Positions 1 through 15,258 of a stretch of DNA of 64,000 nucleotides are shown piece after piece; the first letter of the stretch is position 1, and the number at the start of each line of letters is the position of its first letter. The stretch is from an uncultured Myxococcales bacterium (GTDB lineage: Bacteria; Myxococcota_A; UBA9042). The stretch covers positions 1-64,000 of the forward strand of contig CAIMLR010000026.1 of NCBI GenBank assembly GCA_903842345.1, written 5' to 3'. The notes beneath the pieces are model-generated. The model saw only the letters and a list, made by a program, of their open reading frames with translations, did no database searches and had not been told where the DNA came from. The translations under genes and the position numbers were made by a program.

Positions 1-210
1 CCAACCTTTGGCGGTTCGCGGGGTCCTTGGGTCCCGCTCGCCGCGCCGGCCTGGTTGATGTGGGCTTTGCGTGTCGCTGAGCGCGCGCCCAGTTTTCCGC
101 AAAGCACCGCGCCCGACATGCGCGGCAAAAAGGTATTCGTGGATTTGCGACTTTTGCCGCGCGACGCGATGTCGATTCGGAGAAATTCTTTGCCGCCGCG
201 GCCGATCAGC
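1..210. other. Left edge, no gene recognised
   Basis: This edge lies downstream of the minus-strand lipoprotein gene that stops at 211. The open frames crossing it are antisense to that gene and carry no recognisable protein features. I see no convincing terminator, promoter or RNA gene here. Confidence 0.5.
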
Positions 211-1649: not shown

Positions 1650-2013
1650 CGGCAACCCCTTGAACTGGACGCGAGGCAGACCACGTGCGTGGCTCACCTG
1701 TCGGGACACAAACCGCGCTTGGCCGGGCCAAGGCGTATTTGCGAGCCGCTCCCCTTTGACAGCCGGATGGCCGTCACCTCGAGGGCGCGAAAAGCTCAAG
1801 GGGAGTTCCCGACTTACGCTCTTGGCCTGGCGACCACGAGCGCTCACGGTTGCGGGTCAGCGCCGGAATTGCACCGGACTTCCTCCCAAGTCGCATCGGC
1901 ATTCGATCGACTTGCAAAGAGGCTATTGAGGTTGCGCCCAGCCGTCAAGACAGGGCACGATACGGCCCCGTCGACGGACACCGCGTCGCCGATCGCGCCC
2001 AAAGGAGCTCTGG
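1650..2013. other. Divergent intergenic region
   Basis: This 364-bp stretch separates the minus-strand lipoprotein pair from the plus-strand carboxylase operon and should hold both promoters. I could not find a -35/-10 pair that I trust. A good ribosome binding site, AAAGGAG, sits seven bases before the accC start. No protein with recognisable features is encoded here. Confidence 0.5.
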
Positions 2014-13812: not shown

Positions 13813-14244
13813 ATGCCAAATCGTCGGCAATTTGACCACATTGGTAACTTCAACTTCAAAGTCGAAGTCGAAGGCGTCACCACGGGCGCATTCCGCAACG
13901 TGGAAGGCTTGGATTCTGAAACGGAAGTGATCGAGTACCAGGACGGCGACGACCTGATCCTCCGCAAGCGCCCGGGTCGGACCAAGTACACGAACGTCAC
14001 GCTGAAGCGCGGCTATATCAACAACACCGAGCTCTGGGAATGGCGCAAGAACGTCGTCGAGGGCAAAGTGCAGCGCAAGTCGGGATCGATCATCCTCTGC
14101 GCCGACGATGGCAGCGAGATCATGCGGTACAACTTCTTTGAAGGCTGGCCGACCAAGTGGAAGGGCTTCACCCTCGACGGCAAAGGCACCGACGTCAATG
14201 TCGAAGAGCTTGAACTCGCAGTGGAAAAGATCGAACGCGGTTGA
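13813..14244 (+). CDS. Phage tail tube / contractile injection system tube protein (gp19 family)
   Basis: A 143-aa protein of the T4 gp19-like inner tube family, also used in extracellular contractile injection systems. Family features are the NFNFKVEVEGVTTGAFRNVEGL opening region (residues about 12-33), the EYQDGDD and LRKRPGRTKYTNVTLKRG loop-strand, the WEW segment, and the C-terminal YNFFEGWPTKWKG followed by an ELELAVEKIER strand. Tube proteins normally sit among sheath, baseplate, spike and ATPase genes, but neither neighbour here is a tail gene. GGAG lies about 11 bases before the start. A strong intrinsic terminator follows, so the gene is a self-contained transcription unit. It could be a partner-specific spare tube subunit, a domesticated relic, or part of a scattered system; the sequence does not decide. 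Confidence 0.87.
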   Translation: MPNRRQFDHIGNFNFKVEVEGVTTGAFRNVEGLDSETEVIEYQDGDDLILRKRPGRTKYTNVTLKRGYINNTELWEWRKNVVEGKVQRKSGSIILCADDGSEIMRYNFFEGWPTKWKGFTLDGKGTDVNVEELELAVEKIERG

Positions 14245-14274
14245 GCCAAAGGGCGCGAACGTGAGGTCAGCCGG

Positions 14275-14316
14275 GGGCGTCGATTCCGCGAGGATTCGAC
14301 GCCCTTGAGCGTTTTT
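14275..14316 (+). terminator. Intrinsic terminator of the tube gene
   Basis: GGGCGTCGA (14275-14283) pairs perfectly with TCGACGCCC (14296-14304); the intervening bases can add a TCC/GGA helix capped by GCGA. A T-rich tail ending in GTTTTT (14311-14316) follows. This is the best rho-independent terminator in the window. Confidence 0.85.
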
Positions 14317-14877
14317 GGCGGTCGCGCGGTCTGCCGGACGCATGCCGCCCATCGCGCCGGGGCCGCCCGCCCAGCTTCTGCCGCCCCGCCGAAGGGGGCC
14401 CAGCTTGCGCCGGGCACACCCATCCACCCCTGGGTCCCAGCGTTTCCGCTGCCCAGCCGAGCCTTCGGCCGCCCGTTGGGATTCCCTGATCCCCGTGGCA
14501 GCCCGGCAATGGTTTGTGGGCCCGTGGCTTCACCCGCCGTACGCCGGGGTTGGCCGCGAACGAGAGCACCGACATTGCCCTCAGATGGTATTCGGTGATT
14601 GGGCGGTTTTGCCGCGCGGCGGGCCAGAAGTTTTTCGGAATCGGGTCGCTCGCGGCAGACTGTCGGTGCGAAAGGGATGTGCGCCGCTTCGCGGTCGTGG
14701 CGCGTTTGGCTCGCCAAACGCGTCACGAGTCGGCCCTTCGGGGCCGACCGCCAGCCCGGTCCCGGCGGCAGCCGGGATTCGCCCAGCTCATGTGGCAAAC
14801 GCCGCATCACGCGAGGCGATTCCGGTTGATCCATTCAGTGCAGACGGTGAGGCAGCGAAGGACGGCTCGCACGCGCG
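14317..14877. other. Non-coding, structured intergenic element
   Basis: About 560 bp between the tube-gene terminator and the minus-strand PilZ-like gene. Several frames are open across it on both strands, but their translations are low-complexity and Arg/Pro/Gly-rich with no family features, so I call no protein. The part from about 14680 to 14780 is packed with consecutive inverted repeats. The density of dyads is unlike any other gap in this window. It could be a mobile or REP-like repeat, or a structured RNA. Confidence 0.55.
14695..14747. repeat. Two adjacent strong hairpins
   Basis: TCGTGGCGCGTTTGGC (14695-14710) pairs with 14713-14728 along 16 positions, all Watson-Crick except one G-U, leaving only TC between the arms. 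One base later TCGGCCC (14730-14736), TTCG and GGGCCGA (14741-14747) form a 7-bp stem with a UUCG tetraloop. CCGCC (14748-14752) and GGCGG (14764-14768) can form a third stem. No T tract follows. Confidence 0.85.
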
Positions 14878-15186
14878 CTACTTGCCCAGGGCGCGCATCA
14901 ACCGCCGTTTCTGGTCGGGAAACAGGTGCTTGAACTTGATGTCCAGCGCCAGCGTCAGCGGATCCCGCGGCTGCACTTCGCCGAGCGCGCGGACGGGTTC
15001 GCCCTCGTCGACGTTCAGATCCATCCAAACGTACCGGCCGAGCTCGAGCGCGCCGACGTCGTTCAGGTGCACGCCATCCAGGTCGATGGACTCAGCCTGC
15101 GTCTCCAAGTCCGGCGCCTGATGCGCATTGCCGCGATGGAGCGCGACGCGGTGGTTGTGCAGGGTAATGACGTTGTCCGTGGCCAT
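14878..15186 (-). CDS. Small PilZ-like protein (about 102 aa)
   Basis: The protein is the size of a single PilZ domain. It has a central HLNDVGALELGRYVWMDLNV stretch resembling the (D/N)xSxxG segment and following strand, and its C-terminus (ALDIKFKHLFPDQKRRLMRAL) matches the closing strand and helix of PilZ domains. The N-terminal RxxxR c-di-GMP motif is not evident, so it may be a non-binding or divergent member. The start is uncertain: ATG at 15186 or 15207 and GTG at 15222 are in frame and none has a clear ribosome binding site. Confidence 0.55.
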   Translation of the reverse strand: MATDNVITLHNHRVALHRGNAHQAPDLETQAESIDLDGVHLNDVGALELGRYVWMDLNVDEGEPVRALGEVQPRDPLTLALDIKFKHLFPDQKRRLMRALGK

Positions 15187-15258
15187 CCGTAGAGTCCCAA
15201 GCGGCATCGGCCGCGTGCCCACAGGATGGCGCGACTGGCGCGCCGGTCAATTATTTCG

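Follow-up and report, generated by a model that had tools for sequence, protein, structure and literature searches.

The gap behind the tube gene holds two repeated elements

The locus described here lies in a 64,000-nucleotide stretch of DNA from an uncultured Myxococcales bacterium (the window), in which a tube gene of the T4 gp19 family and a convergent gene for a 114-aa protein face each other across a gap (14245-14877). A sequence-only reading had described consecutive inverted repeats in this gap; they are indeed present, and the gap contains two separate multicopy elements, A on the minus strand and B on the plus strand. A and B are independent of each other and lineage-specific; both are repeats from a single family of uncultured Myxococcota and seem not to have been described before. 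The features are:

13813-14244, plus strand: tube gene, T4 gp19 family
14275-14316, plus strand: terminator-like stem (14275-14304) and T-rich tail (TTGAGCGTTTTT) of the tube gene, recognised by eye
14343-14586, minus strand: element A, a non-coding RNA candidate with approximate ends, from the match to model R3, alignments and pair counts
14587-14615, minus strand: promoter-like motif of element A, GCGGCAAAA-N12-CGAATACC, from motif counts and position before genes
14666-14786, plus strand: element B (core 14668-14784), a member of a dispersed cloverleaf family, from matches to covariance models R1 and R2 and common ends in the alignment
14668-14672 with 14778-14782, plus strand: closing helix P0 (GCGAA/UUCGC), covarying in 61 copies
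14674-14676 with 14755-14757, an A.G mismatch, 14678-14679 with 14752-14753, and 14681-14683 with 14749-14751, plus strand: helix P1
14684-14694, plus strand: hairpin P2 (CCGC-TTC-GCGG)
14695-14728, plus strand: hairpin P3, a 16-position stem
14729-14748, plus strand: hairpin P4, 8 bp with a UUCG loop
14760-14777, plus strand: hairpin P5 (TCCCGGC-GGCA-GCCGGGA)
14878-15222, minus strand: convergent 114-aa gene
1-160, minus strand: second copy of element A, cut by the contig start (R3 match 1-131, 66 bits; motif 132-160, C26:132-160)

Searches with the gap DNA returned scattered partial matches in congeners that sort into two modules: module A (roughly 14333-14635), found again in all four congeners, and module B (14668-14786), found again in congener G002 with sharp common ends. 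Besides the two main stems, inverted repeats lie at 14275-14304, 14355-14391 and 14533-14548. The gap as a whole folds with a z-score of -3.4 against 20 shuffles, and the segment 14670-14790 reaches -74.9 kcal/mol compared with -57.0 +/- 4.1 for 200 shuffled sequences, none of which folded as well (z -4.4). A terminator search found no terminator-like site in the gap. By eye, TTGAGCGTTTTT stands after the stem at 14275-14304, which is probably the tube gene's own terminator; similar stems, again by eye, lie behind the orthologous tube genes.

Neither element reaches the gathering threshold of any family in Rfam 15, and the matches to CC3552 and c-di-GMP-I-GGC are weak and far below threshold; the sole gathering-level match within the window is a cobalamin riboswitch (1790-1922, minus strand). 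A tRNA-like identity was rejected, as ARAGORN finds no tRNA within the window. Open papers on repeats in myxobacteria, on surveys of structured RNAs and on cloverleaf repeats, covered mostly at title and abstract level, yielded no published match for A or B, which is weak evidence that none exists. In amino acid sequence the tube protein is 99-100% identical across five species, and it has two remoter paralogues on this genome's own contigs (C26:64958-65380 and C5:36966-37379; 44% and 27%). None of the eight proteins checked at 48.7-64 kb is encoded by a contractile-injection gene.

Element B is a conserved cloverleaf

Element B consists of the closing helix P0, one A, helix P1 (GGG/CCC, the A.G mismatch, two more pairs, a bulge and the inner pairs), the hairpins P2, P3 and P4 side by side, GG, and finally P5. 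The sequence-only reading had singled out two of these hairpins. The stem of P3 (14695-14710 with 14713-14728) is as it described, with 16 positions, 94% complementarity and 2 nt between the arms, and the UUCG-capped stem that follows is real as well, with a length of 8 bp (14729-14736 with 14741-14748) rather than 7 bp.

The fold is conserved across many copies. Over the outer 13 pairs in 61 copies, 99.5% of pairings are standard and 10 of the 13 pairs have changed on both sides, compared with 25-52% paired and 0-3 double changes when partners are slid. Extending the count to all 41 pairs and to 115 distinct copies gives 93.1% standard pair cells and double changes in 38 pairs, against 35-47% and 16-23 in the slid control; since this alignment was fitted to the model and its outer columns are nearly ungapped, those outer columns carry more weight. 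The segment is not single-copy sequence, a reading ruled out by the multiple copies in this genome and its congeners and by the abundance of compensatory change. Conserved folds and compensatory changes likewise support the earlier suggestion of a structured RNA, which would presumably be transcribed. Cells with G.U and A.G outnumber those with A.C and C.U, which suggests that it is the reported strand that folds; the bias is weak when the count is confined to the 13 pairs with the least ambiguity (10 G.U vs 5 A.C).

In 111 copies the conserved ends read GCG..(A/G)A and CGCCCA(A/G)A. There is no conserved motif upstream of B, so a promoter of its own was rejected. A subtype starting with GCGC(A/G)AGGG (loci L094, L095, L104, L145, L146 and L150-L152) has an extra common upstream block, roughly CGCGCGGCCCG followed by GCGCCAG, and the unit may thus extend 5' in those copies.

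Element B is dispersed and lies near gene ends

Covariance model R1, built from four B copies, found diverged copies across the family, and a second model, R2, was built from 61 copies. R2 has 54 matches in G002 and 17 in G006; this genome has 9 and eight others have 2-6 each, with none in congener G004; because the genomes are draft assemblies in many contigs, these copy numbers are rough lower bounds, and the E-values come from short calibrations. Among congeners the number is very uneven (54, 9, 5, 3 and 0), and an exact B pattern found only contigs of G002. Outside its family, B has no match among 52 genomes of the class, and in the phylum it was matched in 9 of 189 genomes, all of this same family.

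With genes called by a purpose-written codon-usage script, B is intergenic. The 93 copies with both neighbours called occupy 45 convergent, 34 tandem and 14 divergent gaps, counts that include orthologues, so that not all copies are independent. Placement within the gap is not random: a stop codon that the 3' end of B faces lies at a median of 30 nt (IQR 24-51, n=61) and one that the 5' end faces at 78 nt (n=63; p about 1e-5), and in 34 of 45 convergent gaps it is the 3' end that lies nearer (p 8e-4). Orientation in tandem gaps is even (18 sense, 16 antisense). The tube gene is not a constant companion, as B copies elsewhere adjoin unrelated genes, and no common theme was found among the neighbouring proteins.

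Ten loci contain head-to-head pairs whose 5' ends face each other over 23-106 nt. Two of these, L150 and L161, are the loci with a gene between the copies; in both it is a cysteine-rich lipoprotein-like gene with the same neighbours, in two species, and B as the end of a gene-carrying transposon was rejected. A B copy is kept in the rpoB-rpoC spacer (identified by Pfam matches and position) of four species, and in that of G003 the sequences of P3, P4 and P5 differ yet still pair, with the outer core kept. At the tube locus, B is absent from the orthologous gap of G003 and was not detected there in three other congeners.

Element A is a multicopy non-coding RNA candidate

Element A is a structured sequence of ~245 nt. 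Model R3 recovers the window copy, which is one of its nine sequences, at 14343-14587 with 220.6 bits, and finds 14 matches in this genome and 10-17 in three congeners. One other genus gives six matches, weak and mostly partial, and the rest of the 35 genomes sampled give none. For 63 predicted pairs in nine close members, 90.9% of cells are paired and 28 pairs show double changes, whereas sliding the partners gives 5-13. In the first hairpin 100% of cells are paired, five of seven pairs have changed on both sides and the loop is constant. A coding role was rejected: the window copy has a 102-aa frame, and other copies show, by eye, early stops, lost starts and frame-breaking indels.

Several assembly contigs start (C18, C34, C14 and the window's own) or end (C28 and C3) inside a copy of A, as expected if this repeat broke the assembly. 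A-type sequence is found at the tube locus of all five species; it lies on the minus strand here and in G003 but on the plus strand in the other three, G001, G002 and G004 (L207-L210), which suggests inversion or replacement by a paralogue.

A promoter-like motif links element A to DNA-uptake genes

On the window's plus strand, the A copies that were examined finish with GGTATTCG-N12-TTTTGCCGC, which on the other strand is GCGGCAAAA-N12-CGAATACC. Searched with up to 3 mismatches, this 29-mer has 30 copies in this genome, and four congeners have 14-29 copies each; it is absent from five genomes outside the genus, and a reversed-pattern control gave zero matches. Eight copies in this genome lie 27-78 nt upstream of a start codon. 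The genes that follow encode DprA (PF02481, E 1e-37), ComEC (PF03772, E 8e-22), a protein with a NuiA domain (PF07924, E 7e-26) that we take to be of the nuiA/comJ type, a ComF-like phosphoribosyltransferase (its PF00156 match falls just short of the cut-off), a helicase that on inspection is RecQ-like, and further a 127-aa uncharacterised protein and a lipoprotein-like protein. Other motif copies have no close gene and are instead joined to the aligned ~245-nt sequence, and many precede uncharacterised genes or no gene. In G003 (L124), the start of a Y1 (HUH) transposase-like gene lies 92 nt downstream from an A-type motif (1928-1957), raising the possibility that a single-strand-DNA enzyme shares the regulon.

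We propose that A is transcribed leftwards from a putative GCGGCAAAA-N12-CGAATACC promoter, most likely read by a putative alternative sigma factor. As the same factor would also drive DNA-uptake genes, A may be a competence-linked multicopy regulatory RNA. The motif might instead mark a general stress or other regulon in which competence genes are a minority of targets, as the 127-aa protein, the lipoprotein-like protein and the G003 transposase among the targets would allow. We hold this to be unlikely: two of the eight close targets have strong competence domains (DprA and ComEC) and one a NuiA domain, to which inspection adds the ComF-like and RecQ-like proteins.

Discussion

What the computations show is the dispersal, the conserved folds, the placement of B and the motif with its location ahead of genes; transcription, a function as RNA, the sigma factor, competence control and the way in which copies arise are inferred. 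We lean towards a reading in which B is a cloverleaf acting in RNA near gene ends and A a competence-linked multicopy regulatory RNA with an alternative-sigma promoter. The single-strand fold of B would be kept by selection and would most likely serve as a compact, GC-rich structure in untranslated RNA, where it could shield or delimit transcripts in the manner proposed for REP/BIME repeats; new copies would arise by a non-autonomous route. What sits oddly with action in one mRNA strand is that copies in tandem gaps are antisense about as often as sense (16 vs 18). The weak wobble-pair bias in the least ambiguous helices of B, and the many motif copies that stand before uncharacterised genes or none, also speak against this reading.

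That even orientation is among the points that favour the main rival, in which B is non-autonomous mobile DNA and a recombinase or HUH transposase supplied in trans recognises its single-strand cloverleaf. The fold would then be kept for mobility, and the placement near stop codons would reflect targeting or purifying selection. The very uneven copy number between congeners, the head-to-head pairs, as in REP doublets, and the missing or undetected B in the orthologous tube-locus gaps all fit. However, the flanking genes are ordinary, no target duplication was noticed, copies persist at orthologous positions in different species with their hairpins re-paired, and a partner enzyme is lacking: no transposase was seen beside B copies, which also leaves the earlier suggestion of a mobile-element end unsupported, and there is no B at the five Y1-transposase loci. 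We consider mobile DNA rather doubtful as the explanation of B. A transcription terminator, or a structure delimiting the end of the convergent gene whose stop lies ~30 nt away, would account for the tight spacing to stop codons and the strong GC-rich hairpins. It is nevertheless improbable, given that B has no T tract (the search for a GC-rich hairpin followed by a T tract gave no site in the gap) and that many copies have no stop close to their 3' end; since rpoB and rpoC are normally transcribed together, the copy in their spacer makes termination less likely still.

A bolder combination, which we offer only tentatively, would make A a competence-induced multicopy ncRNA under a new alternative-sigma promoter shared with dprA, comEC and the nuiA/comJ-type gene, and B a self-spreading cloverleaf element of RNA or single-stranded DNA unlike REPs. 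If this is true, natural transformation in these Myxococcota has in A an arm made of RNA. The motif of A provides a concrete genome-wide entry to possible competence control in uncultured Myxococcota, and suggests several RNA genes in a competence regulon. The conserved architecture of B is far more elaborate than that of a REP, so its many copies form a natural experiment on RNA versus mobile DNA, a question that the copy retained in the rpoB-rpoC spacer of four species makes testable.

Among known systems, integron attC sites carry terminal RYYYAAC / GTTRRRY boxes in cassette arrays, and no boxes of this type are found among the conserved ends of B. REP, BIME and REPIN sequences are extragenic and dispersed, with a single 20-40-nt hairpin, a GTAG/CGTC tag and head-to-head doublets (PMC3733652, PMC2817692). 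B resembles them in its extragenic dispersal in tens of copies, its head-to-head doublets, its compensatory changes and its position near gene 3' ends in convergent gaps, so that the REP/BIME-like label of the sequence-only reading holds for dispersal and placement. It fails for REP identity: B is a ~120-nt multi-hairpin cloverleaf (model matches of 89-169 nt, with a closing stem and four hairpins) instead of a 20-40-nt single hairpin, there is no GTAG or CGTC tag at the conserved ends of 111 copies, and no RAYT gene flanked by B turned up, the five Y1_Tnp loci in six genomes having no B match nearby. In size and in its many intergenic copies, B is also similar to the enterobacterial small mobile sequences RU-1, RU-2 and RU-3, summarised as 103-168 bp with many intergenic copies (PMC2759123), a likeness of description.

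For element A, one parallel is the streptococcal CIN-box, TACGAATA, found in late competence promoters and read by SigX/ComX (PMC6224593). The motif of A likewise has CGAATA close before DNA-uptake genes, including those of dprA and comEC type, a likeness that may be chance. It differs in belonging to another phylum, in the conserved GCGGCAAAA block 12 nt upstream and in a leading TA that is not conserved. Streptococci also encode csRNAs, several paralogous small RNAs per genome that are connected with competence control. At ~245 nt and with no homology shown, A differs from these, but it shares with them the presence of several paralogues per genome and a possible link to competence.
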